DNA of 64,000 bases from Thiosulfatihalobacter marinus (GTDB lineage: Bacteria > Pseudomonadota > Alphaproteobacteria > Rhodobacterales > Rhodobacteraceae), in assembly GCF_016019955.1 (NCBI RefSeq), contig NZ_JAECRZ010000002.1:62001-126000 (forward strand), read 5' to 3'. The translations under genes and the position numbers were made by a program. Under the pieces are notes generated by a model, which was given only the letters and a program-made list of their open reading frames with translations, searched no databases and had not been told where the DNA came from. Shown here piece by piece: positions 32,006-56,490 of the stretch (its first letter is position 1; each line of letters begins with the position of its first letter).

Positions 32006-32827
32006 ATGTCCACGCCCCCGTATTATGTTCCCCAGGGTGGGTTGCCGCCGCAAACGCAGCTTTTGACGGACCGGGCCATGTTCACCGAGGCCTATGCCGT
32101 GATCCCGCGCGGAACGATGAGCGATATCGTGACATCCAACCTGCCCTTGTGGGAGGGCACGCGGGCCTGGGTTCTGGCCCGGCCGCTCAGCGGTTTTGCC
32201 GAGACATTTTCGCATTACATCACCGAAGTGGCGCCCGGCGGGGGCAGCGACCGGCCAGAGCCGGACCCCCAGGCGCAGGGCGTCTTGTTCGTGGTGGAAG
32301 GGCAATGCGACCTGACCATCGCAGGCGTGGATCACAGGATGGGCGCGGGCGGCTATGCCTATCTGCCCGCCGCGTGTGACTGGCAGTTGCGCAACCGATC
32401 GGATGCGCCGGTGCGCTTTCACTGGGTGCGCAAAGCATATGAGGCCGTCCCGGGAATCGACGCGCCTGAGCCTTTTGTGACCAACGAAAACGACGTTGCC
32501 GCCCAGGCAATGCCGGGGACGGATGGCAAATGGGCCACCGCCAGGTTTGTCGATCCGGACGACATGCGCCACGACATGCATGTCAATATCGTGAATTTCG
32601 AGCCGGGCGCAGTGATCCCCTTTGCCGAGACCCATGTGATGGAACACGGGCTATACGTGCTGGAGGGCAAGGCGGTGTACCGGCTCAATCAGGATTGGGT
32701 CGAGGTCGAAGCCGGTGATTACATGTGGCTGCGTGCCTTTTGCCCGCAAGCCTGTTACGCTGGGGGGCCGGGGCGGTTCCGCTATCTGCTGTACAAGGAT
32801 GTCAACCGCCACATGAAACTGCGCTGA
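32006..32827 (+). CDS. allE: (S)-Ureidoglycine aminohydrolase
   Basis: Mn-dependent bicupin that converts (S)-ureidoglycine to ureidoglycolate during purine (allantoin) breakdown, a route that ends in glyoxylate. The 273 residues show two cupin halves; the C-terminal half has EPGAVIPFAETHVMEHGLYV and ends YLLYKDVNRHMKLR. The start at 32006 (MSTPPYYVPQGG) follows GAAGGAAAGG; the frame to 31943 is not family-like. It converges on bhcR. Other allantoin genes are not in the window. Confidence 0.88.
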   Translation: MSTPPYYVPQGGLPPQTQLLTDRAMFTEAYAVIPRGTMSDIVTSNLPLWEGTRAWVLARPLSGFAETFSHYITEVAPGGGSDRPEPDPQAQGVLFVVEGQCDLTIAGVDHRMGAGGYAYLPAACDWQLRNRSDAPVRFHWVRKAYEAVPGIDAPEPFVTNENDVAAQAMPGTDGKWATARFVDPDDMRHDMHVNIVNFEPGAVIPFAETHVMEHGLYVLEGKAVYRLNQDWVEVEAGDYMWLRAFCPQACYAGGPGRFRYLLYKDVNRHMKLR

Positions 32828-32838
32828 GCCCCGCGCGG

Positions 32839-33648
32839 TCAGGCCGGGGCGCCCTGTGCCCGGCTCAGAGCTCCGGCGGCGTCGCGGACTAGCGCGCCAA
32901 CCGTTTCCACGCGCGCAGGTGTCAGGCGCGTTGTCGGGCCGGAAACCGAGATCCCGGCCACGGCCTCGCCATGCAGGTTCAGAACCGGCGCCGCCAGACA
33001 TCGCATTCCAAGGGTACGTTCCTCGTTGTCATGGGCAAAGCCGCGGGCGCGGCTTTGTGCCAGGTCGGACAGCATCGTATCGACATCGATGATGGTGTTG
33101 GCGGTGAAACGTTCGGGCGCGCGCGCCATCAGGCGGGCCACACGTTCGTTCGGAGCCACGCAAAGCAACGCCTTGCCAATCCCTGAGCTGTGCAGCGGTG
33201 ACAGGGTGCCGGGGGCAAAGAAGGCGCGGATGGTTTCGTGGGTTTCGACCTGGCTGAGAAACAACACCTGATCGCCGCGCTCGATACCAAGATTGGCGGT
33301 TTCGCCGGTTTTCTCCATGAGCATCCGCATGATCGGTCTTGCGCGTTCGACCACGCTGGAGCGGCGCAGGAAGGCCGACCCAATACGGAACGCAGCGGGG
33401 CCGACATGCCATGTCTGATCGGCCGGATCTGTTTCGACAATGCCTCTCAGGCCCAGCGTGGTGAGCACGCGATAGATTGTCGCCGGACTTTGATCCAGGC
33501 CGGACGCTATCTCTGACAAGGTCTGGCCGCCCTGCGATGCCAGCGCCTCAAGAACATCCAGCGCCCGGTCAAGGGCCTGAATGCGGGTTTTGTCGCTTGA
33601 ATCGTGAAACCCCTTGGGGCGGCCGCGTTGGCGGATCGGGTGGCTCAT
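32839..33648 (-). CDS. bhcR: IclR-family regulator of the beta-hydroxyaspartate cycle
   Basis: IclR regulator (269 residues from the ATG at 33648) transcribed divergently from bhcABCD, the position described for BhcR, which senses glyoxylate in Paracoccus denitrificans. Winged HTH (TLSEIASGLDQSPATIYRVL) and the effector domain with SSGIGKALLCVAPNERVARL and APVLNLHGEAVAGISVSGP are visible. An in-frame TTG at 33684 would add 12 residues and is less likely. It probably binds the AT-rich intergenic region and controls the operon. Confidence 0.9.
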   Translation of the reverse strand: MSHPIRQRGRPKGFHDSSDKTRIQALDRALDVLEALASQGGQTLSEIASGLDQSPATIYRVLTTLGLRGIVETDPADQTWHVGPAAFRIGSAFLRRSSVVERARPIMRMLMEKTGETANLGIERGDQVLFLSQVETHETIRAFFAPGTLSPLHSSGIGKALLCVAPNERVARLMARAPERFTANTIIDVDTMLSDLAQSRARGFAHDNEERTLGMRCLAAPVLNLHGEAVAGISVSGPTTRLTPARVETVGALVRDAAGALSRAQGAPA

Positions 33649-33843
33649 TGGTGCATCCGGGCATGAAATGAAACTGTTGCACAACTATTTTGAAAAACAG
33701 TTTTGATCAATGAAAAATACTAACTTTTTGATAAAGAACAGAAAACTTACATTTTTTGCACAGAAAAATGCTTTTTCAAAAAAATTGAGCCCAGGAATTC
33801 CCCACCCTATGGTGCCTTGGAACCATGCCATGGAGGGCGTCTC
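33649..33843. promoter_or_regulatory. AT-rich divergent promoter region bhcR / bhcA
   Basis: This 195-bp gap is strikingly AT-rich for the window. It has two TTGCACA copies (33677-33683 and 33756-33762) and several TTTTGA/TCAAAA-type half palindromes, including TTTTGATCAATGAAAA and CTTTTTGATAAAG. Such patterns fit IclR operators and sigma-70 promoters. The exact BhcR site cannot be fixed by eye. Confidence 0.5.
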
Positions 33844-35031
33844 ATGAGTTTTCAGAACCCGGTTTTCATCCCCGGCCCGACCAACATGCCCGAGTCCCTG
33901 CGCCGTGCCGTCGACATGCCGACGCTGGACCATCGCTCGTCGTTGTTTGCCGAGATGCTGCACCCGGCGCGGGCCGGTGTGAAGCAGGTGCTCAAGAGCC
34001 TGGACGCCGAAGTGTTCCTGTTCCCGTCTACCGGCACCGGCGGTTGGGAGATTGCGTTGACCAATACGCTGTCGCCCGGCGATACGGTGCTGGCGGCGCG
34101 CAACGGCATGTTCAGCCATCGCTGGATCGACATGTGCCAGCGCCACGGGCTGAACGTGGAGATTGTTGAAACGGAATGGGGGCAGCGTATCCCCGCCGGG
34201 CGGTTCGAAGAGATACTGACCGCGGATCGCACCCATCGGATCAGGGCGGTTCTGGCCACCCATAACGAGACCGCCACAGGCGTGAAATCCGATATAGCGG
34301 CGGTGCGCGGCGCGATGGACGCCGCCGGGCATCCGGCGTTGCTGTTCGTGGACGGGGTCAGCTCGATCGCGTCGATGGATTTCCGCATGGATGAATGGGG
34401 CGTGGATATTGCCGTGACCGGATCGCAAAAGGGGTTCATGCTGCCTGCCGGTCTGGCCATTGTCGGATTTTCGCCCAGGGCCATGGCGGCTGTCGACACG
34501 GCGCGATTGCCGCGCACGTTTTTTGACATTCGCGACATGGGCCGCAGCTATGCGGCGAACGGCTATCCCTATACGCCCGCCGTGGGATTGCTGAACGGCC
34601 TGCGCCAAAGCTGTGACATGCTGTTGGGCGAAGGGCTGGACAATGTCTTTGCCCGCCACCGCCGGATTGCCGATGGGGTGCGGGCCGCTGTCAAGGCCTG
34701 GGGGCTGGAGTTGTGCGCCGCGTCGCCGGATCTGTATTCGGACAGCGTCAGCGCCATTCGCACGCCGGACGGGTTCAATGCGACCAGCATTGTGACCCAT
34801 GCCGCCGACACCTATGGCGTTGCCTTTGGCGTCGGGCTGGGCGAGGTGGCGGGCAAGGTGTTCCGTATCGGCCATCTGGGGATGCTGACCGATGTGCTGG
34901 CCCTGTCGGGCATCGCCACTGCCGAGATGTGCATGGCCGATCTGGGGCTGGATATCCGGCTGGGGTCTGGGGTTGCGGCGGCGCAGGAGGTCTATCGCGC
35001 CAGCGCGCCCGCCCTGAAGGATGCTGCGTGA
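33844..35031 (+). CDS. bhcA: Aspartate–glyoxylate aminotransferase (beta-hydroxyaspartate cycle)
   Basis: PLP class V aminotransferase that moves the amino group from aspartate to glyoxylate, giving oxaloacetate and glycine, thus closing the cycle. The 395 residues contain the PLP lysine in TGSQKGFMLP (about K196), the cofactor Asp in LFVDGVSSIASMDF and FIPGPTNMPESLRR at the start. The same fold serves serine–glyoxylate aminotransferases, but the bhcBCD neighbours settle the assignment. The ATG at 33844 follows GGAGGGCGTCTC. Confidence 0.93.
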   Translation: MSFQNPVFIPGPTNMPESLRRAVDMPTLDHRSSLFAEMLHPARAGVKQVLKSLDAEVFLFPSTGTGGWEIALTNTLSPGDTVLAARNGMFSHRWIDMCQRHGLNVEIVETEWGQRIPAGRFEEILTADRTHRIRAVLATHNETATGVKSDIAAVRGAMDAAGHPALLFVDGVSSIASMDFRMDEWGVDIAVTGSQKGFMLPAGLAIVGFSPRAMAAVDTARLPRTFFDIRDMGRSYAANGYPYTPAVGLLNGLRQSCDMLLGEGLDNVFARHRRIADGVRAAVKAWGLELCAASPDLYSDSVSAIRTPDGFNATSIVTHAADTYGVAFGVGLGEVAGKVFRIGHLGMLTDVLALSGIATAEMCMADLGLDIRLGSGVAAAQEVYRASAPALKDAA

Positions 35032-35999
35032 TGAAGGATATGACCATGGCCTTGCCGACCTATGACGACGTGCTGAAAGCGCGGGACCGCATCGCGCCAC
35101 ACGTCCGGCGCACGCCGGTGATGACTTCGGATTACCTGAATGACCTGACCGGGGCGCAGTTGTTCTTCAAGTGCGAGAACTTTCAGGAAGCGGGCGCATT
35201 CAAGGTGCGCGGGGCCTCGAACGCGGTGTTCGGTCTGGACGACGTGCAGGCACGCAGCGGCGTGTGCACCCATTCCTCGGGCAACCACGCGCTGTCGCTG
35301 AGCTATGCCGCCGGGCGGCGGGGTATTCCGTGCAACGTGGTGATGCCGCGCACCGCGCCCCAGGCCAAGAAGGACGCGGTGCGCCGCTATGGCGGCACGA
35401 TCACCGAATGCGAGCCCTCCACCAGTTCACGCGAGGCGGTGTTTGCGCAGGTGCAGGCTGCGACGGGGGGGGATTTTGTACACCCTTACAACGATCCGCG
35501 CGTGATTGCTGGGCAGGGCACATGCTCGGCGGAGATGATGGAACAGACCGACGGGCTTGACGCCGTAATTGCGCCGATTGGCGGCGGCGGCATGATTTCG
35601 GGCACCTGTCTGACGCTCTCGACCCTGGCGCCGGAGGTGGTGGTCTATGCGGCGGAGCCGGAGCAGGCCGACGATGCCTGTCGCAGCTTCAGGGCCGGGC
35701 ATATCATCGCCGACGACGCGCCGGTGACGATTGCCGATGGGCTGAAGGTGCCCTTGAAGGAAAACACCTGGCATTTCGTGTCCACCCATGTGCGCGACAT
35801 CTTCACCGCCTCTGAGGAAGAGATTGTCGAGGCGATGAAGATCACATGGAAATATCTGCGGGTGGTGATGGAACCGTCCAGCGCGGTGCCGCTGGCGACC
35901 ATCCTCAAGAACCGCGAGGTGTTCGCGGGCAAGCGCGTAGGCGTGATTGTCACCGGAGGCAATGTCGATCTGGATCACCTGCCCTGGATGGCGGGCTGA
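35031..35999 (+). CDS. bhcB: Beta-hydroxyaspartate dehydratase
   Basis: PLP fold-type II dehydratase that turns beta-hydroxyaspartate into iminosuccinate. The 322 residues resemble threonine dehydratase/serine racemase: PLP lysine in GAFKVRGASN (about K58), THSSGNHALSLSYAA and the glycine-rich phosphate loop PIGGGGMISG. The ATG overlaps the bhcA stop by one base (GTGATG), so translation is coupled. It shares the opening MKDMT with bhcC. The product is reduced by BhcD. Confidence 0.92.
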   Translation: MKDMTMALPTYDDVLKARDRIAPHVRRTPVMTSDYLNDLTGAQLFFKCENFQEAGAFKVRGASNAVFGLDDVQARSGVCTHSSGNHALSLSYAAGRRGIPCNVVMPRTAPQAKKDAVRRYGGTITECEPSTSSREAVFAQVQAATGGDFVHPYNDPRVIAGQGTCSAEMMEQTDGLDAVIAPIGGGGMISGTCLTLSTLAPEVVVYAAEPEQADDACRSFRAGHIIADDAPVTIADGLKVPLKENTWHFVSTHVRDIFTASEEEIVEAMKITWKYLRVVMEPSSAVPLATILKNREVFAGKRVGVIVTGGNVDLDHLPWMAG

Positions 36000-36028
36000 C
36001 GCCAGGCTGACCCAAAAGGATCAAGGAA

Positions 36029-37192
36029 ATGAAAGATATGACCAATCTGGACCAATTCGACGTGGGTTTCGACATTCCGGCCAAGCCGGGCATGGCCGAG
36101 GCCGATATACAGACCCCGGCGCTGGTGCTGGACCTGGATGCGCTGGAGCGTAACATCAGGAAGATGGGGGATTACGCCAAGGCGCATGGGATGCGCCATC
36201 GCGTGCATGGCAAGATGCACAAATCCGTGGATGTCGCCAAATTGCAGGAACGCCTGGGCGGCGCGGTGGGGGTGTGCTGTCAGAAGGTGAGCGAAGCGGA
36301 AGTTTTTGCACGTGGCGGGATCAGGGACATTCTGGTCAGCAATCAGGTGCGCGATCCGGCCAAGCTGGACCGGCTGGCGCGGATGCCCGGGCTGGGTGCG
36401 CGGGTGATTGTCTGTGTGGATGATATCGACAACGTCGCCGAATTGTCGGCGGCGGCAACCAGGCACGGCACCATGCTGGAATGCCTGGTCGAGATCGACT
36501 GTGGCGCGGGGCGTTGCGGGGTGACGACCGCGGCAGAGGTGGTGGCGATCGCCGGCGCCATAGGGCCTGCCGGGGGGCTGAAATTCACCGGCATCCAGGC
36601 CTATCAGGGCGCGATGCAGCATCTTGACAGATATGACGACCGCAAGGCGAAGCTGGATATCGCGATTGCGCAGGTCAAAGAGGCTGTGGACGCGTTGAAG
36701 GCAGAGGGGATCGGATGCGATCTGGTTTCCGGCGGCGGCACGGGATCCTATTATTTCGAAAGCAATTCAGGAGTTTACAACGAGCTGCAATGTGGCTCCT
36801 ACGCCTTTATGGACGCCGATTACGGCCGCATTCTGGACAAGGATGGCAATCGCATCGACCGGGGAGAATGGGAAAACGCGTTCTTCATTCTGACCCAGGT
36901 GATGAGCCACGCGAAGGCGGACAAGGCCATCGTGGATGCCGGGCTGAAGGCGCAATCGGTGGATAGCGGGTTGCCGGTGATTTTCGGGCGCGCTGATGTC
37001 GAATATGTCAAATGTTCGGATGAACATGGCGTGGTGGCCGATCCGGGCGGGGCTTTGAAGGTGGGCGACAAGCTGCGGCTGGTGCCGGGGCACTGTGATC
37101 CGACCGCGAATGTGCATGACTGGTATGTCGGGGTTCGCAACGGCGTTGTGGAATGTGTCTGGCCGGTCTCGGCCCGCGGGCGGGCATATTGA
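36029..37192 (+). CDS. bhcC: Beta-hydroxyaspartate aldolase
   Basis: PLP enzyme that joins glycine and glyoxylate to make beta-hydroxyaspartate, the entry step. The 387 residues follow the D-threonine-aldolase fold: N-terminal alanine-racemase-like barrel with the PLP lysine in HGKMHKSVD (about K62), and a C-terminal beta domain with the metal-site pattern PGHCDPTANVHDWYVG. The start follows AAGGA. D-threonine aldolase or D-serine dehydratase activity is possible in isolation, but the cluster supports BhcC. Confidence 0.92.
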   Translation: MKDMTNLDQFDVGFDIPAKPGMAEADIQTPALVLDLDALERNIRKMGDYAKAHGMRHRVHGKMHKSVDVAKLQERLGGAVGVCCQKVSEAEVFARGGIRDILVSNQVRDPAKLDRLARMPGLGARVIVCVDDIDNVAELSAAATRHGTMLECLVEIDCGAGRCGVTTAAEVVAIAGAIGPAGGLKFTGIQAYQGAMQHLDRYDDRKAKLDIAIAQVKEAVDALKAEGIGCDLVSGGGTGSYYFESNSGVYNELQCGSYAFMDADYGRILDKDGNRIDRGEWENAFFILTQVMSHAKADKAIVDAGLKAQSVDSGLPVIFGRADVEYVKCSDEHGVVADPGGALKVGDKLRLVPGHCDPTANVHDWYVGVRNGVVECVWPVSARGRAY

Positions 37193-37220
37193 GGATCGGA
37201 TCGCAAGCGATCCGACCGGG

Positions 37221-37267
37221 CGGGGGTTTCACCCCCGCACCCCCAGGATATTTTCAGCCAAAAGAAG
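37221..37267 (+). repeat. Dispersed intergenic repeat, copy 6, providing the ribosome site of bhcD
   Basis: A hairpin (GCGGGGGTTTCACCCCCGC) followed by AGGATATTTTCAGCCAAAAG. Its end, AAAGAAGGAACGG, supplies the Shine-Dalgarno sequence of bhcD at the normal spacing. The element therefore sits inside the bhc operon between bhcC and bhcD. Confidence 0.75.
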
Positions 37268-37276
37268 GAACGGATC

Positions 37277-38242
37277 ATGTGGATTGTGCCGGAGCGTGAG
37301 GTCGCGGCGTTGGTGACGCGCAAGGCGGCGTTTGACGCCGTGGAGCAGGTGTTCGCGGCCATGGCAGCGGGAGAGGCGCGCAATTTTCCGGTGGTGCGCG
37401 AGGCCCTTGGCCATGAGGAGGCGCTGTATGGTTTCAAGGGCGGGTTTGACGGTGTCGGGGGGGCGCTTGGGCTGAAGGCGGGGGGATACTGGCCTCACAA
37501 CATGGCGCGGCGCAGGGTGATCAACCACCAGTCGACCGTGTTTCTTTTCGATCCTGATACCGGACGGGTGCGGGCGATGGTGGGGGGAAACCTTTTGACC
37601 GCGTTGCGCACGGCGGCGGCGTCGGCCGTGTCGATCGCGCATCTGGCGCGCGGGGACGCCCGGGTTCTGGGGATGGTTGGTGCGGGGCATCAATCGGTGT
37701 TTCAGTTGCGCGCGGCGTTGGAACAGCGGGATTTTGACAGGGTGATCGGCTGGAACCTGCATCCCGGGAACCTGAAGCGCCTGGAAGTGGTGGCGCGCGA
37801 AAAAGGCGTGCCATTTGAAGCGGTTGCGCTTGAGGGGATGCGCGCGGCGGATGTAATCATCACGATCACGTCGAGTTTTGATGCGATCCTGACCCGTGAT
37901 CATGTCAGCCCTGGTACGCATATCGCGGCCATGGGGACGGACACGAAGGGCAAACAGGAGCTAAGCGCGGACCTGGTGGGGGCGGCGTCTGTGTTTACGG
38001 ACGAGGTGGCGCAATCGGTGTCCATCGGCGAGGCGCAGCACGCGGTTGCCTTGGGGGAACTGGAGGCCGGGAATATTGTCGAGCTGGGGGCGGTGATCAA
38101 CGGGACCCATCCGGGGCGGGGGGCGGCCGAGGAGATCACGCTGTTTGATGGCACCGGTGTGGGGTTGCAGGATCTGGCCGTGGCGGGCGCGGTGGTGGCG
38201 CGCGCGATCGAAGCCGGGGTCGCGACCGAAGTGGATATCTGA
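37277..38242 (+). CDS. bhcD: Iminosuccinate reductase
   Basis: NADH-dependent reductase that makes aspartate from iminosuccinate, the third step of the cycle. The 321 residues belong to the ornithine cyclodeaminase/mu-crystallin family: GMVGAGHQSVFQLRAAL is the Rossmann loop and FKGGFDGVGGALGLKAGGYW the substrate side. The gene is separated from bhcC by an 84-base gap carrying a dispersed repeat, which supplies its AGAAGGA ribosome site. It remains in the same direction and is probably in the same operon. Confidence 0.92.
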   Translation: MWIVPEREVAALVTRKAAFDAVEQVFAAMAAGEARNFPVVREALGHEEALYGFKGGFDGVGGALGLKAGGYWPHNMARRRVINHQSTVFLFDPDTGRVRAMVGGNLLTALRTAAASAVSIAHLARGDARVLGMVGAGHQSVFQLRAALEQRDFDRVIGWNLHPGNLKRLEVVAREKGVPFEAVALEGMRAADVIITITSSFDAILTRDHVSPGTHIAAMGTDTKGKQELSADLVGAASVFTDEVAQSVSIGEAQHAVALGELEAGNIVELGAVINGTHPGRGAAEEITLFDGTGVGLQDLAVAGAVVARAIEAGVATEVDI

Positions 38243-38309
38243 GGCTTTTCAGGCTGGTGTTTCGTGGCCAAACCCGTTCAATTGGCGCAAGTATGGCGGG
38301 GGGATGACC

Positions 38310-39317
38310 ATGTCAGATCGCACAATCCGGGTCTTCATCAACGGGTTCGGCCGAATTGGGCGCACCTTGTTGCGGATCCTGGCTCGGGGGCAGCATCCCG
38401 GTATCGAGATTGTCGGGATCAATGATATCGAGCCTTTGGAAACCTGTGCCTATCTCTTTGAATACGATAGCGTTTTCGGTGCCTATTCGGGGCAGGTGGC
38501 GGTGGCCGACGGGCGGTTGGTGATCGATGGGAGGCCGATTGCGTTCCATGATGCGCATGATCTGACGGCGCTGGATCTGGGATCGGTGGATGTGGTGCTG
38601 GAATGCACTGGCATGGCTGGTACACGGGCAATGGCCGAACGCGGGCTGTCGGCGGGGGCGCGCTCGGTCCTGATTTCGGGGCCGTCGGAGGAGGCCGATG
38701 TCACGCTGGTGATGGGGGCGAATGCGCATCTGCTGGCGGATCAGCGCATCGTGTCGAATGCCTCCTGCACGACCAACGCGCTGGCGCCGCTGTTGCGGGT
38801 GCTGGATGCGGAATACGGCCTGACCAGCGGTCATATGACGACGGTGCATTGCTATACCGGCAGCCAGCCGACGGTTGACAAGCCGCGCGGCGATTTGGCG
38901 CGCAGCCGGGCGGCGGCGCTGTCGATGGTGCCCACGACGACTTCGGCGCAGCGGCTGATAGACCGGGTTCTGCCACATCTGGCCGGGCGGGTCGAGGCGC
39001 GCGCCATTCGTGTGCCCACCGCCAGTGTTTCGGCAATTGATCTGACAATTCAGACAGTTAGGCCAACGGAGCGCGAGGTTGTGAATGCCGTTTTGCGGGC
39101 CGAGGCGGCGCGCGGCGCGCTGATCGGGTGGACCGAGACGCCGCTGGTGTCCACCGACCTTCGAGCGCGGCCTGAATCGCTGATCATAAGCGGGCGCGAG
39201 ACCTCGGTTTCGGTTGGGGGGTTGTTACGGGTCTTCGGGTGGTACGATAATGAATGGGGCTTTTCCAACCGCATGTTGGACATGGCGACGTTAATGGGGC
39301 GGCGGAACGCCGTTTGA
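38310..39317 (+). CDS. Glyceraldehyde-3-phosphate dehydrogenase family protein, closer in places to erythrose-4-phosphate dehydrogenase
   Basis: A 335-residue NAD-type GAPDH-fold enzyme: INGFGRIGRTLLRIL, the NAD-selecting Asp in GINDIEP, the catalytic Cys in NASCTTNALAP (about C153) and His in MTTVHCYTG. Segments such as DLARSRAAALSMVP and WYDNEWGFSNRMLDMA resemble Epd as much as GapA. It could act in glycolysis/gluconeogenesis, or make 4-phosphoerythronate for PLP synthesis. The start at 38310 (MSDRTIR) is chosen over 38304 because of spacing to GGCGGGGGG. It lies between bhcD and maeB on the same strand. Confidence 0.75.
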   Translation: MSDRTIRVFINGFGRIGRTLLRILARGQHPGIEIVGINDIEPLETCAYLFEYDSVFGAYSGQVAVADGRLVIDGRPIAFHDAHDLTALDLGSVDVVLECTGMAGTRAMAERGLSAGARSVLISGPSEEADVTLVMGANAHLLADQRIVSNASCTTNALAPLLRVLDAEYGLTSGHMTTVHCYTGSQPTVDKPRGDLARSRAAALSMVPTTTSAQRLIDRVLPHLAGRVEARAIRVPTASVSAIDLTIQTVRPTEREVVNAVLRAEAARGALIGWTETPLVSTDLRARPESLIISGRETSVSVGGLLRVFGWYDNEWGFSNRMLDMATLMGRRNAV

Positions 39318-39336
39318 GGGGACATCGGAGAACAAG

Positions 39337-41616
39337 ATGACGGAACAAAAAGAGGCGCAGGAAACTGCGCGCAAGGCGGCGCTGGATTATCACGAATTTC
39401 CCAAGCCCGGGAAGCTGGAGATTCGCGCCACCAAACCGATGACCACCGGGCGCGATCTGAGCCGCGCCTACAGCCCCGGCGTGGCCGAAGCCTGCCTTGA
39501 GATCGAGAAAAACCCCGCGGATGCGGCGCGTTACACGTCCAAGGGCAATCTGGTGGCGGTGATTTCCAACGGCACCGCCGTTCTGGGCCTTGGCAATATC
39601 GGCGCGCAGGCCAGCAAGCCGGTGATGGAAGGCAAGGCCGTGCTGTTCAAGAAATTCGCCGGCATCGACTGTTTCGATATCGAGGTGAACGAGCCCGATC
39701 CCGAAAAGCTGGCCGATCTGGTTTGCCGGCTGGAGCCGACATTCGGCGCCGTGAACCTTGAAGACATCAAGGCACCCGACTGTTTCCTTGTAGAGCGTAT
39801 TTGTAAAGAACGGATGAATATCCCGGTCTTTCACGATGACCAGCATGGCACCGCCATCGTGGCGGCCGCGGCGGCCTATAACGCCTTGATCGTGGCCGAT
39901 AAACAGGTGGACCGGATCAAGGTTGTGGCGCTGGGCGCGGGGGCGGCGGGGATCGCCTGTCTCAAGATGCTGATGACGATGGGGGTGCGGCACGAAAACA
40001 TCCTGATGCTGGACAGCAAGGGCGTGGTGCACAAGCAGCGCAACGACCTGACGCCGGAGAAGGCCGAATTCGCGCAGGACACCGACAAGCGCACCACGAT
40101 GGAGGCAATGGCGGGGGCAGACCTGTTCCTGGGGGTGTCCGGGCCGGGGCTGTTGACGCGGGAGATGGTTGCGCAGATGGCGGAGGACCCGATCATCTTT
40201 GCCCTGGCCAATCCCACGCCGGAAATCATGCCCGAAGAGGCCCGCGCGGCGGCGCCGGGGGCCCTGATCGCGACAGGGCGCAGCGACTATCCCAACCAGG
40301 TCAACAACGTGCTGTGTTTCCCGTTCATCTTTCGTGGCGCGCTGGATGTGGGCGCGACCGAGATCAACGACGAGATGAAGCTGGCCTGTGTCGAGGCGAT
40401 TGCCTCGCTGGCGCGGGAAACGACCAGCGCCGAAGTGGGGGTGGCCTATCGCGGCGAAGAGCTGTCTTTTGGGCCCAACTATCTGATTCCCAAGCCGTTT
40501 GACCCTCGTTTGCTGCCAACGATCGCGGTGGCGGTGGCCAGGGCGGCGATGGAGAGCGGCGTGGCAACGCGCGAGTTGGATCTGTTCGAATATGAGGACA
40601 GGTTGCAGGCCCAGGTGTTCCGTTCGTCGATGATCATGCGCCCTGTCTTCGAGGCGGCCAGCCGCACAAGGCGGCGGATCATCTTTGCAGAGGGCGAGGA
40701 TGAACGGGTTCTGCGTACCGCGCAGGCGATGATCGAGGAAACCGTGGATACGCCGGTTCTGATCGGGCGGCCGGAGGTTGTGGAGCATCGCCTGAAGCGG
40801 ACAGGGCTGAAGATCAAGCCCGGCGTGGATTTCGATCTGGTAAACCCGGAGCAGGACGAGCGGTTCCGGGATTACTGGACCCATTACCATGTCAAGATGC
40901 GGCGGCGCGGCGTGACGCCGGAATCGGCCAAGACAATCCTGCGCACCAACACCACCGCGATTGCGGCGATTGCCGTGGATCGCGGGGACGCCGACAGCAT
41001 GATCTGTGGCACGTTTGGCGAGTATCGCTGGCACCTGCGTTACGTGACAGAAGTGCTTGCAAACAAGGAGTTGCATCCGATTGCGTCCTTGTCGCTGATC
41101 CTGCTGGACAAGGGGGCGCTGTTCCTGGCCGACACACATATCCATATCGAGCCGACCTCGGAACAGGTGGCCGAAACCGTGATTGCGGCGGCGCGGCATG
41201 TGCGCCGGTTCGGGGTGGATCCCAAGATCGCCCTGTGCTCGGGCAGCCAGTTCGGCAACCTTGACAGCCATTCGGGACGCGTGATGCGCGGCGCGTTGGA
41301 ATTGCTGGACCTGAACGAACTGGAATTCGAGTATGAAGGCGAGATGCACACCGATGCGGCGCTGGACCCGGACCTGCGTGACCGGCTGTTCCCGGACGGG
41401 CGCCTGACGGGCAAGGCCAATGTGCTGGTCTATTCCAATACGGATGCGGCGGGCGCGACGCGCAACGTGTTGAAATCGGTGGCGGACGGGCTGGAAGTGG
41501 GGCCGATCCTGATGGGGATGGGCAACCGGGCGCATATCGTGACGCCATCGATCACGGTGCGTGGATTGCTGAACACGGCCGCGCTGGCGGGGACGGATGT
41601 GTCGTCTTACGGCTGA
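39337..41616 (+). CDS. maeB: NADP-type malic enzyme with C-terminal phosphotransacetylase-like domain (paralogue 2)
   Basis: Converts malate to pyruvate and CO2. The 759 residues have the same layout as the protein at 1881-4160: [20 protein letters not shown] and [10 protein letters not shown] in the malic domain, [10 protein letters not shown] in the nucleotide site, and a phosphotransacetylase-like C-terminus ([14 protein letters not shown]). It is 20 bases downstream of the GAPDH-like gene and downstream of bhcABCD. Oxaloacetate made by the cycle, reduced to malate, would be a substrate; that link is inference. Confidence 0.93.
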   Translation: MTEQKEAQETARKAALDYHEFPKPGKLEIRATKPMTTGRDLSRAYSPGVAEACLEIEKNPADAARYTSKGNLVAVISNGTAVLGLGNIGAQASKPVMEGKAVLFKKFAGIDCFDIEVNEPDPEKLADLVCRLEPTFGAVNLEDIKAPDCFLVERICKERMNIPVFHDDQHGTAIVAAAAAYNALIVADKQVDRIKVVALGAGAAGIACLKMLMTMGVRHENILMLDSKGVVHKQRNDLTPEKAEFAQDTDKRTTMEAMAGADLFLGVSGPGLLTREMVAQMAEDPIIFALANPTPEIMPEEARAAAPGALIATGRSDYPNQVNNVLCFPFIFRGALDVGATEINDEMKLACVEAIASLARETTSAEVGVAYRGEELSFGPNYLIPKPFDPRLLPTIAVAVARAAMESGVATRELDLFEYEDRLQAQVFRSSMIMRPVFEAASRTRRRIIFAEGEDERVLRTAQAMIEETVDTPVLIGRPEVVEHRLKRTGLKIKPGVDFDLVNPEQDERFRDYWTHYHVKMRRRGVTPESAKTILRTNTTAIAAIAVDRGDADSMICGTFGEYRWHLRYVTEVLANKELHPIASLSLILLDKGALFLADTHIHIEPTSEQVAETVIAAARHVRRFGVDPKIALCSGSQFGNLDSHSGRVMRGALELLDLNELEFEYEGEMHTDAALDPDLRDRLFPDGRLTGKANVLVYSNTDAAGATRNVLKSVADGLEVGPILMGMGNRAHIVTPSITVRGLLNTAALAGTDVSSYG

Positions 41617-42310: not shown

Positions 42311-44083
42311 TCAGAGCGGCCAGAAGACCAGGATGGCGGGAACCGAGACCGCCACAACGATCAGTTCCAGCGGCAGGCCCATGCGCCAGTAATCCGCGAA
42401 ACGGTAGCCGCCGGGGCCCAGGATCAGGGTGTTGTTCTTGTGTCCGATGGGCGTAAGGAAGGCACAGCTTGCGGCCACGGCCACGACCATCAGGAAGGGA
42501 TCGGGCGAGACATTCAGCGTTTGTGCCATCTGGATGCCCACCGGGGCGGCCACGATGGTGGTGGCGGTATTGTTGAGCAGGTCCGAAAGTGTCATGGTCA
42601 CGATCATCAGCACCGTCAGCACGGCCCAGGCGGGAAATCCCTGGGTCAGCGAGACCAGACTGCCCGCGATCAGGGCGGTGCCGCCCGAGCTTTCCAGTGC
42701 GGTGCCAAGCGGGATCATCGACCCCAGCAACACCACCACCGGCCATTCGATCTGGTTGTAGATTTCCGAGATCGGCATGATCCTGGTGAGCACATAGCCG
42801 ATGGCAACAAGGCCAAGCGCCACAGGCAGATAGATCAGTTCCAGCGAGGCGGCGATCACGGCGGCCAGAAACAGGCCGATGGCCAGCCATGTCTTGGAAT
42901 TTGCGGTCACGACAAGGCCCCGGTCGGCCAGCGGCAGGCAGCCCAGCCAATCGGTGATGTCGGCTCCCCGCCCTTTGGGGACCAGAACAAGCAGGATATC
43001 GCCGGGCAGCACAACTGTCTTGCGGATCTGGCTGCGCACGCGCTGACCCTGACGGGAAATGCCCATCAGCACCGCGCCTTGCCGCCAGGCGAGCCCCAGC
43101 GCCTGTGCCGTCTTGCCGGCGATGCGGGCGGTTTCGGGCACGACGATTTCGATCACGTCCAGCCCGTCGCCCGCGGCCTTGAGCCGCTCTTCACGTTTTT
43201 CGTCGGAGAAGTTCAGCGCCAGGGCGGCGCGGAATTCGTCCAGCGCGTCGGGCGCGGCTTCGAGCACCAGCGCGTCGCCGTCGCGCAGGATATTGTTGCG
43301 GCCCGAGCCGTAGACGCGTTTGCCGCCGCGCAACAGGCCAAGGATGGCGACATCGCTTTCCTCGGCCTGGGGATCCAGTTCGCCCAGGCGCTGGCCGATC
43401 AGCTTGCTGTCGGCCGGGATGGTCAGTTCCGCGATATATTGCCCAAGGTCGGATACCTTCCTGCCCGCATCCTCGCGTTCGGGGATCAGGCGCCAGCCGA
43501 TCAGCGCCACGAAGGCGAGGCCGGCAATTGCGGTCAGCCCGCCGACCGGGGCGAAATCGAACATGCGGAACGGGGCGCCCAGCGTATCCTCGCGGATCGC
43601 GGCGATGATGATGTTGGGGGGCGTGCCGATGGCGGTGATCATGCCGCCCAGGATGGTGGCAAAGGAAAGGGGCATCAGCGAGCGTGCCGGGCTGCGTCCG
43701 GCCTTGCGCGCGGTCTGGATATCAACCGGCATCAGCAGGGCCAGCGCGGCGACGTTGTTCATGAAGGCTGACAGCACGGCGCCGATACTTCCCATCAGCG
43801 CGATATGGCCGCCCAGACCACGGGCGCTGTCCACCAGCGTGCGGGTGATCAGGAGCACCGCGCCCGACCGCACCAGCCCGGCCGAGACCACCAGCACCAG
43901 CGCCACGATGATCGTGGCCGGGTGGCCAAAGCCGGAAAACGCGTCCTTGGTGGGCACCACGCCCAGCACCACGCCGGTCATCAGGGCGGCGAAGGCCACG
44001 AGATCATAGCGGAATTTGCCCCAGAGCAGCATCACGAAGACGCCGCCGAAGAGGCTGAACAGGATAATCTGGTCGATGGTCAT
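42311..44083 (-). CDS. SLC13/DASS-like transporter with two RCK_C (TrkA-C) domains
   Basis: Inner-membrane anion (sulfate/carboxylate-type) permease of 590 residues. The N-terminal membrane half has several helices (LVAFAALMTGVVLGVVPTKD, FATILGGMITAIGTPPNIII). A central soluble stretch of about 200 residues has two TrkA-C-like domains. A second membrane half (PVVVLLGSMIPLGTALESSG, ATTIVAAPVGIQMA) follows. This layout is typical of bacterial SAC1/SLC13 proteins. The substrate is not predictable; sulfate or dicarboxylates are possible. The start at 44083 (MTIDQIILFSLFGG) was chosen over 44134. Confidence 0.85.
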   Translation of the reverse strand: MTIDQIILFSLFGGVFVMLLWGKFRYDLVAFAALMTGVVLGVVPTKDAFSGFGHPATIIVALVLVVSAGLVRSGAVLLITRTLVDSARGLGGHIALMGSIGAVLSAFMNNVAALALLMPVDIQTARKAGRSPARSLMPLSFATILGGMITAIGTPPNIIIAAIREDTLGAPFRMFDFAPVGGLTAIAGLAFVALIGWRLIPEREDAGRKVSDLGQYIAELTIPADSKLIGQRLGELDPQAEESDVAILGLLRGGKRVYGSGRNNILRDGDALVLEAAPDALDEFRAALALNFSDEKREERLKAAGDGLDVIEIVVPETARIAGKTAQALGLAWRQGAVLMGISRQGQRVRSQIRKTVVLPGDILLVLVPKGRGADITDWLGCLPLADRGLVVTANSKTWLAIGLFLAAVIAASLELIYLPVALGLVAIGYVLTRIMPISEIYNQIEWPVVVLLGSMIPLGTALESSGGTALIAGSLVSLTQGFPAWAVLTVLMIVTMTLSDLLNNTATTIVAAPVGIQMAQTLNVSPDPFLMVVAVAASCAFLTPIGHKNNTLILGPGGYRFADYWRMGLPLELIVVAVSVPAILVFWPL

Positions 44084-44214
44084 GTGCGCGCCCCGGTTTT
44101 GGTTGATCCAACCGCAGGCGCAAACGGAAAGCAAGCCGCTTGCGGGTTGTGGCCTGACTGCCGTATAGAAGCGCCGACATCACGGACACGTGCAGGAATA
44201 ACCGGAGGCGAAAC

Positions 44215-50516: not shown

Positions 50517-50541
50517 GTTCAAATAAAAAATGAAATGGTCA

Positions 50542-50555
50542 TTCAAAAAATTGAA
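50542..50555. promoter_or_regulatory. BetI-type operator palindrome
   Basis: TTCAA-AAAA-TTGAA is a 14-bp palindrome within an AT-rich stretch (50510-50560) between betI and betB. A weaker TTCAAATAAAAAATGAAA precedes it. Its position fits repression of both genes. Confidence 0.5.
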
Positions 50556-50621: not shown

Positions 50622-52073
50622 ATGCAATTGCAACCCACCGCCAGCCATTTCATCGACGGCGCCTATGTCGAGGATACCGAAGGCGCCCCGATCGACATCA
50701 TTTACCCGGCGACCGGCCAGGTGATCGGGCGGGTTCATGCCGCCACGCCCGCCATCGTGGATCGGGCGCTGGCCAGTGCCGAGGCGGCGCAGCGGGACTG
50801 GGCCAGGAGGACGGGGCGCGAGCGGGGGCGTATCCTGACCCGCGCGGCGGCGATCATCCGCGAACGCAATCACGAATTGTCAGTGCTGGAAACCCACGAC
50901 ACCGGCAAACCCTTGCAGGAGACATTGGCCGTGGATGCCACCAGCGCGGCGGATGCGCTGGAGTATTTCGGCGGGCTGGCCGCCAGCCTGACGGGCGAGC
51001 ATATCGCGTTGGGCGAAGACTGGGTCTACACGGTCCGCGAACCGCTGGGCGTGTGCGTGGGCATCGGCGCGTGGAACTATCCCACGCAGATCGCCGCCTG
51101 GAAGGGCGCCCCGGCGCTGGCCTGTGGCAATGCGATGGTGTTCAAACCGTCGGAAACCACGCCGATCTGTGCGCTGAAACTGGCGGAAATCCTGGTTGAG
51201 GCGGGCTTGCCCAAAGGTGTGTACAACGTGGTGCAGGGCATGGGCGAGGTGGGCGCCGCGCTGGTGGGGGATCCGCGTGTCGCCAAAGTGTCGCTGACCG
51301 GATCGGTGCCGACCGGGCGTAAGGTATACGCGGCGGCGGCGGCGCAGATGAAGCATGTCACGATGGAGCTGGGGGGCAAATCGCCGCTGATCATCTTTGA
51401 CGACGCGGATCTGGACAATGCCGTGGGCGGCGCGATCAACGGCAATTTCTATTCCTCGGGGCAGGTCTGTTCCAACGGCACGCGGGTGTTCGTGCAGAAG
51501 GGCATCAAGGAGGCGTTCCTGGCGCGGCTGGCCGAACGGCTGGGCGACGCGGTGATCGGCGATCCGCTGGACGAGGCCACCAGCTTTGGCCCGATGGTGA
51601 GCGCGGCGCAGATGAATATCGTGCTGGGCTATGTTGACAAGGGCAAGGCGGAAGGCGCGCGGCTGATCTGTGGCGGGCAACGGCTGGCGCGCGACGGGTT
51701 TTATGTTGCGCCCACGGTGTTCGCCGATGTGAGCGACGACATGACGATCGCGCGCGAAGAGATCTTTGGCCCGGTGATGTCGGTGCTGGATTTCGAGGAC
51801 GAGGCCGAGGCGGTGGCGCGTGCCAACGCGACGGAGTTCGGCCTGTCGGCGGGGGTGTTTACCCGCGACCTGAGCCGGGCGCACCGGGTGATCGGGCAGA
51901 TGCAGGCGGGAAGCTGTTTCATCAATTCCTACAATGACGCCCCGGTCGAGGCGCCCTTTGGCGGGGTGAAGGCCAGCGGTGTGGGCCGCGAGAATTCCAA
52001 GGAGGCCATCCAGCATTACAGCCAGGTGAAATCGGTCTATGTGCGCATGGGCGACGTGGAGGCCCCGTTTTGA
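50622..52073 (+). CDS. betB: Betaine aldehyde dehydrogenase
   Basis: Oxidises betaine aldehyde to glycine betaine with NAD. The 483 residues have the ALDH motifs: MELGGKSPL (general base Glu), [11 protein letters not shown] (catalytic Cys) and PWNYP-type region [13 protein letters not shown]. The betI and betA neighbours confirm the assignment. The ATG at 50622 follows GCAGGAGCGCACCCC. The opening THFIDG-like sequence ([10 protein letters not shown]) is typical. Confidence 0.94.
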
Positions 52074-52152
52074 GCGCGCGCATCGCCCTTTTGCCACGCG
52101 CCCACCCGCCCACCCCGCCCGCCAAAAGGGCGATGGTTTGGGAGCGCGGATA

Positions 52153-53802
52153 ATGCAGGCGGATTATGTGATTGTCGGGGCGGGCAGCGCGGGCTGTGCG
52201 CTGGCCTATCGGCTGAGCGAGGCCGGCAAATCGGTTCTGGTGATCGAGCATGGCGGCAGCGATGCCGGGCCGCTGATCCAGATGCCGGCGGCGCTGAGCT
52301 ATCCGATGAACATGTCGATGTATGACTGGGGCTATCGCACCGCGCCCGAGCCGCATCTTGGCGGGCGGCGGCTGGCCTGTCCGCGCGGCAAGGTGATCGG
52401 GGGGTCAAGCTCGATCAACGGGATGGTTTATGTGCGCGGCCATGCCGGGGATTATGACCATTGGGCGGAAAGCGGCGCGACCGGCTGGGGCTATGCCGAT
52501 GTGCTGCCCTATTTCAAGCGCATGGAAAGCTGGCATGGCGGCGATAATGCCGACGGGTTTCGCGGCACGGACGGGCCGCTGCATGTCACGCGCGGACCGC
52601 GCGACAACCCGCTGCACACCGCGTTTGTCGAATCGGGGCGGCAGGCGGGCTATCCGGTGACAGAGGATTACAACGGGCGCCGGCAAGAGGGTTTCGGCGC
52701 CATGGAGATGACCGTGTGGAAGGGGCGGCGCTGGTCGGCGGCCAATGCCTATCTGAAACCGGCGCTGAAGCGCGAGAACTGCGATCTGGTCCGCGGGCTG
52801 GCCCGGCGCGTGGTGATCGAGGACGGCCGTGCCATAGGGGTGGAAATCGAGCGCGGCGGCAAGGTGCAGGTGATCGGTGCGCGCGCCGAAGTGATCCTGG
52901 CGGCCAGTTCGCTGAACTCGCCCAAGCTGTTGATGCTGTCTGGGATCGGACCGGCGGCGCATCTGGCCGAACACGGTATCGACGTGCTGGCCGACCGCCC
53001 CGGCGTGGGGCAGAACCTTCAGGATCACCTGGAGCTGTATATCCAGATGGCCAGCAAACAGCCGATCACGCTGTTCAAGTATTGGAACCTGTTCGGCAAG
53101 GCGCTGATCGGCGCGCAATGGCTGTTTGCCAAGACCGGGCTGGGGGCGTCCAACCAGTTTGAAAGCGCGGCATTCATTCGCTCGAAGCCGGGGGTGCGCT
53201 ATCCGGATATCCAGTACCATTTCCTGCCTATCGCGGTGCGTTATGACGGGCAGGCCGCGGCCGAAGGGCACGGGTTCCAGGCGCATGTCGGCCCGATGCG
53301 CTCGGCGTCGCGCGGGGCGGTTTCGTTGCAATCGGGCGATCCGAAAGCCGCGCCGCATATCCTGTTCAACTATATGAGCGCAGCCGAGGATTGGGAGGAT
53401 TTCCGCACCTGCATCCGCCTGACCCGCGAGATCTTTGCTCAGGACGCGTTTGCGCCCTTCGTCAAACACGAGATTCAGCCCGGCGTCGCGTTGCAATCGG
53501 ATGACGATCTGGACGGGTTCATCCGCGAGCACGTGGAAAGCGCCTATCACCCCTGCGGCACCTGCCGGATGGGGCGGGCGGACGATCCGCACGCGGTGGT
53601 GGATCCCGAATGCCGCGTGATCGGCGTGGACGCGCTGCGCGTGGCCGACAGCTCGATCTTTCCGCGCATCACCAATGGCAATCTGAACGGTCCGTCGATC
53701 ATGACCGGCGAAAAGGCCGCCGACCACATCCTGGGCCGCCGCCTGGCCGCATCGAACGAGACCCCCTGGTTTGCGCCGGGCTGGCAGGCGGAACAGCGCT
53801 GA
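52153..53802 (+). CDS. betA: Choline dehydrogenase (GMC oxidoreductase)
   Basis: FAD enzyme that oxidises choline to betaine aldehyde at the membrane. The 549 residues begin [20 protein letters not shown] (FAD loop), with [20 protein letters not shown], the GMC signature [16 protein letters not shown], and the active-site HPCGTC and [14 protein letters not shown] start at 52153 because the family begins here and a GGGAGCGCGG sequence precedes; frames from 52039 run into betB's end. It lies about 80 bases after betB. Confidence 0.92.
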
Positions 53803-54976: not shown

Positions 54977-56377
54977 TTACTCCACCTCATAGGGTAGCAC
55001 GCCGCGGGTGTTCTGATTGATCGTCAAGCGGCGTTCCAGAGGCGGTACCGAGCGTTGATGACAATGGGTGCGCTCGCAAATCCGGCAAGAAATGCCTATC
55101 GGTTCAAAGGCTTGCGGGTTTGAAATGTCCATGTGATCGGCATAGACCAGCGCATCGGCATGGCGGATTTCGCAGCCCAGCGCAATCGCGTAGCGCCGCA
55201 CCGGGGCACCAAAATGCCCGCCCGATTTGGACACGTCCCGCGCCAGCGAGATATAGCGCACACCATCAGGTGTTTCGGCCAGCTGACGCAGGAAACGGCC
55301 CGGGGTTTCAAAAGCGCGGTGTACGTTCCACAGGGGGCAGGCGCCGCCAAAGCGGGCGAATTGCAGGCGCGTGGCCGAATGGCGCTTGGTGATGGTTCCG
55401 GCCTGGTCGACACGCACGAAAAAGAACGGGATGCCCTTGGCGCCGGGGCGCTGCATGGTCGAAAGGCGGTGGGCAACCTGTTCGACCGAGGCGCCAAAGC
55501 GGTTGGCCAGCAGTTCCAGATCGTGGCGGGTTTCGCGCGCCGCCTGAAGAAAGCCGGTATAGGGCATCAGCGCCGCGCCGGCGAAATAGTTGGCCAGCCC
55601 GATCTTGGCAATGGCGCGGGCGGCTTCGGTCTGGAAGCGGGCAAGATCGAGCGTGGCCTCCAGCAACTTGTCGCTTTGCATCAGCGCCACCTGCAACAGC
55701 AACTGGAAGGTTTGCGTTTCCGGCTGGGCGTAGCGCGAGATTTGCAGGCGCGCCGCATCTGGATCGAACAGACGCTGGTCTTCGATATCGGTGAATTCCA
55801 CCGTGATGCCCCGCGCCCGCAACGCCGCGAGGGCGGTTGCGCGGATGCCGCCCTGGTCGGGCGCGGGCGCGGCGAAATGTTCGGCGGCCCGGTCGACGGC
55901 GTCTATGTAGTTGTCACAATAGTGAAAAAAGTCGCGCACCTCGTCCCAGGGGCTGGCCTGCATCTGCACGTCCTGCCGCCCCAGCGCCTCGTCCAGCGAG
56001 GCCAGCCGTTCATGGGTCTGGCGATAGGCGCGGTGCAGTTCCAGAAAGGCGCGGGCCAGTGCGGGCGCGTTGGACGCGGTCAGGCGCAAGTCGGCCAGCG
56101 GGGCGGAGGCTTCGGCCAGGACCGGGTCGGCCAGGGCCTCGCGCATATCCGACACAAGCCGCTCGCTGTCGCCGGTGGACAGCTCGGTCACGTCCAGGCC
56201 AAATTCCTGTGCCAAAGCCAGGACCACGGTGGTCGACACCGGACGGTTGTTGTTTTCCATCTGGTTGAGATAGGGCAGCGACACGCCGAGCTTCTGGGCA
56301 AAATCCTTTTGGGTCAGCGCAAGCCGGGTGCGGATCTCGCGCAGTTTGGCACCGGCATAGAGTTTCTGGGTGGGCAA
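54977..56377 (-). CDS. pccR: Short-chain acyl-CoA regulator of propionyl-CoA assimilation (XRE HTH + ScfR domain)
   Basis: XRE-family regulator (466 residues) with a C-terminal short-chain acyl-CoA regulator domain, the layout of PccR. The HTH is LREIRTRLALTQKDFAQKLG with LPYLNQMENNNRPVS. The C-terminal Cys pair region ISCRICERTHCHQR is typical of ScfR proteins. No ATG exists before the HTH; the TTG at 56377 is preceded by GGAGG at normal spacing and begins LPTQKLYAGAKLRE, as in the family. It lies in the propionyl-CoA gene block and probably controls pccB, prpE and itself. Confidence 0.88.
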   Translation of the reverse strand: MPTQKLYAGAKLREIRTRLALTQKDFAQKLGVSLPYLNQMENNNRPVSTTVVLALAQEFGLDVTELSTGDSERLVSDMREALADPVLAEASAPLADLRLTASNAPALARAFLELHRAYRQTHERLASLDEALGRQDVQMQASPWDEVRDFFHYCDNYIDAVDRAAEHFAAPAPDQGGIRATALAALRARGITVEFTDIEDQRLFDPDAARLQISRYAQPETQTFQLLLQVALMQSDKLLEATLDLARFQTEAARAIAKIGLANYFAGAALMPYTGFLQAARETRHDLELLANRFGASVEQVAHRLSTMQRPGAKGIPFFFVRVDQAGTITKRHSATRLQFARFGGACPLWNVHRAFETPGRFLRQLAETPDGVRYISLARDVSKSGGHFGAPVRRYAIALGCEIRHADALVYADHMDISNPQAFEPIGISCRICERTHCHQRSVPPLERRLTINQNTRGVLPYEVE

Positions 56378-56403
56378 GGGGGCCTCCGGCACTGGGGTTG
56401 CGT

Positions 56404-56427
56404 AGCTGCAAAGATAGCTTTGCAAAG
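56404..56427. promoter_or_regulatory. TTTGCAAA-type sites upstream of pccR
   Basis: AGCTGCAAAGA then CTTTGCAAAG occur about 30 bases upstream of the TTG start of pccR. CTTTGCAAAG is a perfect 10-bp palindrome. The arrangement suggests autoregulation. Confidence 0.55.
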
Positions 56428-56490
56428 CCGCGGGGGCCAGTGGGGATTTCCGGGGGGGCTCGTCGGCCCTGCGGGCCTGCCTCGCGCCTC

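Follow-up and report, generated by a model that had tools for sequence, protein, structure and literature searches.

We analyzed a stretch of 64,000 nucleotides from Thiosulfatihalobacter marinus (assembly GCF_016019955.1, contig NZ_JAECRZ010000002.1, positions 62,001 to 126,000 of the forward strand), hereafter called the window, in which the beta-hydroxyaspartate cycle genes bhcR and bhcABCD lie between allE and two further genes at positions 32006–41616. The first of these two belongs to the glyceraldehyde-3-phosphate dehydrogenase (GAPDH) family; for this gene (38310–39317) and its relatives, we have coined the names gapL and GapL. The second, maeB2, encodes a malic enzyme. The explanation that we favor, with slightly better than even confidence, is that the known bhc operon sits inside a wider glyoxylate module that includes allE, gapL, and maeB2 and works as proposed below. 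The bhcR-bhcABCD core is already known, and the extension is, judging from the sequences compared here, real, recurrent, and partly new.

Gene Content of the bhc Region

All the genes named in an earlier note on this DNA (allE, bhcR, bhcABCD, a GAPDH-family gene, and maeB) were found, in the order and on the strands that it had claimed. They are as follows:

32006–32827, plus strand: allE, (S)-ureidoglycine aminohydrolase (NF008376, 530 bits, cut-off 338)
32839–33648, minus strand: bhcR, IclR-family regulator (NF045644, 391.8 bits, cut-off 350)
33844–35031, plus strand: bhcA, L-aspartate–glyoxylate aminotransferase (NF045640, 747.4 bits, cut-off 650)
35031–35999, plus strand: bhcB, beta-hydroxyaspartate dehydratase (NF045641, 583.5 bits, cut-off 550, scanned from 35040)
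36029–37192, plus strand: bhcC, 3-hydroxy-D-aspartate aldolase (NF045642, 748 bits, cut-off 690)
37277–38242, plus strand: bhcD, iminosuccinate reductase (NF045643, 552.1 bits, cut-off 500)
38310–39317, plus strand: gapL, unnamed GAPDH-family paralogue (Pfam Gp_dh_N and Gp_dh_C over cut-off)
39337–41616, plus strand: maeB2, second malic enzyme with a C-terminal phosphotransacetylase (PTA)-like domain (Pfam malic, Malic_M, and PTA_PTB over cut-off)

AllE, BhcR, and BhcA to BhcD all score above their NCBIfam cut-offs, and bhcABCD stand in canonical order. BhcR and BhcA–D exceed the cut-offs of equivalog models, as does AllE, and the assignment of the core to the beta-hydroxyaspartate cycle holds. 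The claim that allE lies just upstream and converges on bhcR is also borne out, with 11 bases between the two genes. The bhcB ATG overlaps the bhcA stop by 1 base, with an alternative start at 35040, and gapL has an alternative ATG at 38304. The gaps that follow the core had been given as 68 and 20 bases; they are 67 bases between bhcD and gapL and 19 bases between gapL and maeB2. That maeB2 is a second malic enzyme gene is correct: another copy, 66% identical, lies at 1881–4160 on the minus strand of the window. By a crude pattern scan, the plus strand has no terminator-like site from bhcD to the end of maeB2, but a single promoter-like match at 39222–39251, ahead of maeB2.

The Paracoccus denitrificans bhc cluster, compared by description only, shares the four enzymes and the divergent BhcR, for which the window genes reach the equivalog models; the window differs by having gapL and maeB2 downstream and allE upstream. 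It likewise shares allE with the purine and allantoin clusters (allE, allA, puuE, uraH, puuD, nucleobase permease), of which the Sulfitobacter plasmids described below are annotated examples. In contrast to those clusters, allE is the only purine gene adjoining bhc in the window, the puuE of this genome being on another contig.

Neighborhoods of gapL across the Family

The family was sampled with 198 genomes, one per genus. A GapL profile made from a 17-row alignment (A1) matches 81 of these genomes at 483.8 bits or more, the next match scoring 414.6, and gapL is thus present in 81 of the 198. A BhcC relative occurs in 106 genomes, with bhcC in 54 of the 81 that have gapL versus 52 of the 117 that lack it. 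The surroundings of gapL were compared in all 81 (80 fetched, plus the window), mostly over about 7 kb on each side and over less at contig ends. Neighboring markers were scored within 8 kb of gapL, namely bhc genes, purine-breakdown genes (allE, allA, puuE, hiuH), and glycine-cleavage (gcv) genes, a BhcR-like gene being counted up to 0.5 kb away. At least one marker lies near gapL in 59 of the 81 genomes: purine-breakdown genes in 40, bhc in 28, and gcv genes in 13.

The next marker gene after bhcD is gapL in 26 of the 81 gapL genomes. When the named bhcC loci (the best 80 of 597) are taken as the starting point, gapL is found downstream of bhcD in 18 of the 80, and it follows bhcD in Paracoccus homiensis (L017). 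Tateyamaria omphalii is a cultured bacterium that also carries bhcABCD-gapL. The order allE> gapL>, where arrowheads give the direction of each gene, occurs in 12 of the 81 genomes, and allE> bhcR< bhcABCD> gapL> in 9. Several genomes show the arrangement allE> gapL> permease< allA< puuE< hiuH>; in others, bhcR< bhcABCD> stands between allE and gapL, and the same purine genes follow gapL. The earlier claim that the unit extends past bhcABCD is therefore upheld as far as gapL is concerned, since the succession of bhcD and gapL recurs in these genomes and loci and is shared with plasmids of other orders. In two loci a protein of 524–527 residues is encoded closely after gapL or overlapping it (L119, 7988–9562; L120, 8029–9612); that of L119 has no NCBIfam match at E 1e-10.

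Plasmids and Other Orders

GapL is encoded in 29 PLSDB plasmid records. We inspected 19 of them; the other 10 comprise seven further records from Aliiroseovarius crassostreae, one further record from Alloyangia pacifica, and two from Rhizobium strains that are close by identity to inspected ones. The bhc genes lie upstream of gapL in 11 of the 19, with one transporter gene between them in 3 of these; uraH follows gapL without bhc in 3 records, and 5 have neither. Plasmid pDC03 of Rhizorhabdus wittichii DC-6, typed as conjugative, carries bhcR-bhcABCD-gapL-maeB in the window's order under older product names, with gapL and maeB overlapping by 4 bases. Two Agrobacterium plasmids carry bhcR, bhcABCD, and gapL, and bhc and gapL also occur together on Rhizobium plasmids. 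In three Sulfitobacter plasmids (L329, L335, L340), bhcABCD are followed by an AmiS/UreI transporter gene, gapL, and the purine genes, in that order. A transporter of this type between bhcD and gapL would fit urea release from ureidoglycolate.

Of all the evidence, these plasmids indicate most strongly that bhc and gapL can stay together as one unit. The relatives suggest that the extra genes belong to a movable module for glyoxylate and purine breakdown. A class-wide sample had GapL in 4 of 289 genomes, all of the same family. Confinement to that family is ruled out by the copies on plasmids of Rhizobium, Agrobacterium, and Rhizorhabdus. In those plasmid records that annotate it, the gapL product is named only as "glyceraldehyde 3-phosphate dehydrogenase NAD-binding domain-containing protein" or "aldehyde dehydrogenase".

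In Rhizobium bhc clusters, a stand-alone protein that matches only the PTA-like C-terminal domain of MaeB is encoded right after gapL (L337, 9009–10037; L339, 9013–10026). A further record, named as the gammaproteobacterium Vreelandella neptunia (L063), has bhcABCD-gapL-maeB, in which the gapL copy looks broken, with the catalytic Cys replaced and the C-terminal frame lost.

The Slot between allE and gapL within the Genus

The arrangement also varies among the 25 genomes of the window's genus, the window included, for which about 1.5 kb on each side of gapL was inspected. All 25 have gapL, and allE lies directly beside it in 19, L290 included. The gene after gapL is maeB in 18 of the 25 (the window counted, mostly without bhc) and a CitMHS/DASS-type transporter gene in 7. 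Between allE and gapL, three congeners (L287, L292, L294) have a lone bhcC relative of 64–67% identity, and one (L290) has a 132-base bhcC remnant. Anywhere in the genome, canonical bhcC (at least 78% identity, one partial) is present in 14 of the 25, the lone relative only in 3, and neither in 8. G100, the closest relative of the window by gapL, has allE, about 110 bases, gapL, and the transporter that the window has from 42315 onward, with neither bhcRABCD nor maeB there; its bhc operon sits elsewhere, next to xdhB and guaD. From these counts, allE and gapL are the stable part of the region in the genus, maeB2 is often present, and what varies is bhc. Congeners that have the same flanks but differ in whether bhc lies between them also provide natural test pairs.

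GapL as a GAPDH Subfamily

In sequence, GapL matches solved GAPDH structures strongly, and it shares both GAPDH Pfam domains with type I GAPDH (GapA), GapB, and erythrose-4-phosphate dehydrogenase (Epd). Its scores, however, lie under the cut-offs of the corresponding models: 341.5 bits against 367.2 for the GAPDH-I equivalog TIGR01534, 292.2 against 546 for PRK07729 (which we take to be the model of GapB-type GAPDH), and 285.7 against 530.55 and 282.9 against 539 for the two Epd models. In phylogenetic trees, GapL forms its own clade apart from other GAPDHs. The support is 100/100 in a first tree with 18 members, from which the broken L063 copy was omitted (alignment A1 omits the L063 and L072 copies), and SH-aLRT 99 in a tree with 81 members. 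With 98 members, including 17 plasmid copies and excluding the partial plasmid copies L334 and L341, SH-aLRT is 100, and the sister of the clade is one intermediate protein, L275.

The residues that distinguish the clade were compared with 22 other GAPDHs, consisting of 20 high-scoring non-GapL rows of the family sample, L083, and L001 from the window's genome; that genome's L003 and the E. coli proteins stand outside this count. In conventional GAPDH numbering, C149, H176, T179, R231, and N313 are kept in 81 of 81 GapL proteins, as in GapA, GapB, and Epd as a group. The neighbors of the phosphate site differ. S181 and S209 are present in all 81, whereas D181 and G209 are each found in 21 of the 22 compared proteins; the sole non-GapL protein with both serines is L275. 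Position 153 is Ala or Gly in all 81 (Ala in the window) and Cys in all 22, and the Asn of the VSxDFN motif, present in all 22, is replaced by Arg in all 81. D32 and P188, which we take as signs of NAD use, are each kept in 80 of the 81.

GapL is under purifying selection, with a median dN/dS of 0.10 (204 pairs of congeners, dS from 0.1 to 2). Together with the kept residues, this makes it very likely that GapL is functional, with changed neighbors of the phosphate site. On the grounds of tree and residues, we regard GapL as an unnamed monophyletic GAPDH subfamily. A comparable case is the GAPDH associated with ArsJ, also a GAPDH paralogue, whose function is set by its operon. GapL differs from it in its neighbors and in its score against the model NF033735, 265.7 bits under a cut-off of 450.

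MaeB2 and Other Malic Enzymes

MaeB2 has the malic, NAD-binding, and PTA-like domains over the Pfam cut-offs, and scores 979.4 bits against the PRK12861 subfamily model, under its cut-off of 1178. It shares the malic and PTA-like architecture with the other MaeB proteins of the same genomes. The bhc-linked copies nevertheless differ from these in phylogeny: seven bhc-linked maeB genes and one further member, L252, form a clade with 100/100 support, apart from 12 other copies that include the one at 1881–4160 of the window. L252 comes from a 4.8-kb contig on which maeB is the only query match. A strict clade of the seven alone is rejected by the approximately unbiased (AU) test, with p 0.0045, because L252 nests within them.

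The BhcR-Region Motif

Expectation maximization (EM) on 70 bhcR-bhcA intergenic regions yielded the motif TGAAA-N5-TTTCA, with A-rich sequence after it. In the window, a scan with this motif places the following feature:

33685–33784, no strand assigned: putative bhcR-bhcA operator region, with its best sites at 33765–33784 (score 29.7) and at 33685–33704 on the minus strand (score 17.4)

The motif is in line with the palindromic BhcR site predicted before bhcA of Paracoccus denitrificans in the accessible part of PMC11323563. A score of at least 12 is reached before bhcA in 27 of 28 cases, which are partly the same sequences as the learning set, and before 8 of 596 control genes. Among these control genes, 5 are puuE or hiuH, and purine and bhc genes perhaps share regulation through the motif. 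The puuE or hiuH genes of L132, L163, and L175 are preceded by matches of at least 12.

In G177, gapL is divergent from bhcR with the motif between them (score 27.8), and bhcABCD lie about 0.8 Mb away with a motif of their own. We considered whether such a motif at detached gapL genes could serve as general proof of co-regulation, and rejected this, since G177 is the sole case of 25 and betaine genes match the motif too.

Proposed Role of the Module

We propose that AllE acts on the route from purines through ureidoglycolate to glyoxylate, and that BhcABCD would convert two glyoxylates, derived from purines or glycolate, to oxaloacetate. MaeB2 would convert malate to pyruvate. GapL would be an NAD-type phosphorylating glyceraldehyde-3-phosphate dehydrogenase serving gluconeogenic growth on nitrogen-rich or C2 substrates. 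The gene set fits the earlier note's suggestion that C4 carbon may be routed to pyruvate or to sugar phosphates. Where bhc is absent, malate synthase G would combine glyoxylate with acetyl-CoA to give malate. This enzyme is over its cut-off in all 25 genomes of the genus, and glyoxylate carboligase is over its cut-off in none of the 25, where weaker matches are present. By this cut-off, we rejected glyoxylate carboligase as the alternative route of the genus, and the two results together make malate a likely product in congeners without bhc. BhcR would control the window's gapL, and perhaps also its maeB2, through transcription from the bhcA promoter. With no motif of its own and no terminator-like site ahead of it, gapL would depend on that promoter. 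The maeB2 gene, which has a promoter-like match in front of it, may or may not be co-transcribed with bhc and gapL.

Several observations weigh against this proposal. As for gene order, no marker lies near gapL in 22 of the 81 loci, and 27 of the 81 gapL genomes have no bhc. Purine genes accompany gapL more often than bhc does, and in the genus, where every genome has gapL and its usual neighbor is allE, bhc adjoins gapL, in the slot after allE, in only 2 of 25 (the window and G485). In itself, then, gapL is not a bhc gene. The maeB gene is rare beside bhc, being present in just 5 of the 80 named bhcC loci, and it occurs in only 2 of the 81 gapL surroundings (the window and G055). The earlier note had held that the extension would be accidental if the two genes were not next to bhc in relatives and did not respond to glyoxylate. 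On adjacency, the outcome is mixed.

As for function, the window's genome holds four other GAPDH-family genes, so that the need for yet another gluconeogenic GAPDH is not obvious, and the changes at positions 181 and 209 could mean another substrate. As for regulation, the promoter-like match ahead of maeB2 speaks against its co-transcription with gapL, and gapL has its own BhcR-region motif in 0 of 28 bhc-linked cases, 0 of 27 without bhc, and 1 of 25 detached ones (G177). The motif is not specific, since it scores 20.5 before the betaine genes of the window, at an AT-rich site (50532–50551).

In addition, the palindrome TTTGATCAAA lies 61–100 bases before gapL in 8 of the 81 genomes. Nine genomes that were searched have 4–14 such sites each (8 in the window's genome, G000), versus 0–1 for a reversed control. 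In five genomes, many of the sites stand before polyamine transport or breakdown genes and others before unrelated or unnamed genes. The presence of TTTGATCAAA before both gapL and polyamine genes indicates that gapL is not tied to glyoxylate alone; in some lineages it seems to be also part of another nitrogen-substrate regulon. Literature searches for TTTGATCAAA gave nothing relevant by title among the matches listed. The palindrome was also seen before agmatinase and GlnA-like genes.

Alternative Explanations

It is conceivable, though in our view unlikely, that gapL and maeB2 are passengers of a cluster spread by transfer and that their closeness to bhc has no functional meaning. The gapL tree, with weak support for 35 of its 83 inner branches, has at least 18 changes in adjacency to bhc. 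The neighbors vary, 22 of the 81 loci have none of the markers, and some clusters are on plasmids near insertion sequence (IS) elements. Against this, gapL is found with the same partners again and again, across many genera and also in other orders; purifying selection acts on the protein, whose signature residues do not vary; and purine genes stand near gapL in about half of the loci (40 of 81).

Somewhat less probable still is that GapL oxidizes another aldehyde to an acyl phosphate, which a PTA-like partner would then handle, namely MaeB2 through its C-terminal domain or the stand-alone protein of Rhizobium. The serines at 181 and 209, invariant in GapL against Asp and Gly in nearly all of the compared GAPDHs, speak for this idea. 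The gene after gapL, in the window and in 17 further congeners, is maeB2, whose product has a PTA-like domain, and in R. etli Mim1 and R. leguminosarum BIHB 1217 the stand-alone MaeB-C-terminal-like protein overlaps or abuts gapL. These two proteins, however, match the malic-enzyme C-terminal region at 123 and 117.6 bits and phosphotransacetylase at no more than 55.2 and 52 bits. The better match to the MaeB C-terminal region rules out a true phosphotransacetylase after the Rhizobium gapL, and both the stand-alone proteins and MaeB deviate from E. coli Pta around SYSTGTSG. The retention of T179 and R231 is moreover what would be expected for a phosphorylated substrate. A version of the same idea, to which we give equally little credence, is that GapL is a new GAPDH-superfamily enzyme that has its own substrate, an aldehyde from the metabolism of glyoxylate, glycine, or amines, and passes the resulting acyl phosphate to a PTA-like partner. 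If it were true, the glyoxylate module would have an uncharted branch past bhcABCD.

The least probable alternative is that GapL is an erythrose-4-phosphate dehydrogenase feeding pyridoxal phosphate (PLP) synthesis for neighboring PLP enzymes (BhcA, BhcB, BhcC, GcvP, aminotransferases): BhcA, BhcB, and BhcC do match families that use PLP, gapL is near gcv genes in 13 of 81 loci, and TTTGATCAAA also precedes omega-aminotransferase genes and, in G099, pdxJ, but the Epd scores reach little more than half of the cut-offs, the stretch HCYTGSQ of GapL corresponds to HSAMHDQ in E. coli Epd, which thus lacks the T179 that GapL retains, and the purine enzymes encoded near gapL (AllE, AllA, PuuE, HiuH) are not PLP enzymes.

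Purine Link and Relation to Known Systems

The connection with purines is a property of bhc loci themselves. At least one of six purine genes lies in the flanks of 50 of the 80 named bhcC loci, and at least two in 47. Among the 56 loci longer than 21 kb, the counts are 36 and 33. The link is present in 12 of the 18 loci with gapL and 38 of the 62 without it. Judging from these neighborhoods, purines may be a regular glyoxylate source for the beta-hydroxyaspartate cycle. Purines are named as a source of glyoxylate in the accessible part of PMC11323563 (mBio, 2024), and neither that part nor our literature searches, which cover few subscription papers, contain a report of the bhc-purine gene neighborhood. 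With the same coverage, a search for bhcABCD together with glyceraldehyde-3-phosphate dehydrogenase returned no paper, and the accessible main text of PMC11323563 has no occurrence of "GAPDH", "glyceraldehyde", or "gap". The paper does report that P. denitrificans growing on glyoxylate has less MaeB and PckA once the regulator gene cceR is deleted, a point in favor of the proposed role.

The beta-hydroxyaspartate cycle has been described as a glycolate route of marine bacteria and has been used in plant engineering and in work on ethylene glycol, a plastic monomer (including PMC11166783, as far as accessible). A natural bhc unit can, according to the gene orders found here, carry a downstream end (GapL, MaeB2) that the accessible parts of PMC11323563 and PMC11166783 do not mention as part of the cluster. 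Because GapL is a compact family, has an invariant signature, and occurs in 81 of the 198 sampled genera, one enzyme assay could name many genes.

Other Genes of the Window

A gene for a RamB-like acetate regulator lies at 54977–56572 on the minus strand, about 13 kb from the bhc unit, and scores 423.7 bits against a cut-off of 700. The betaine genes occupy 50622–53802 and encode betaine-aldehyde and choline dehydrogenases with a BetI-type regulator. Downstream of maeB2, at 42311–44134 on the minus strand, is a gene for a CitMHS/DASS-type anion transporter with TrkA_C domains.

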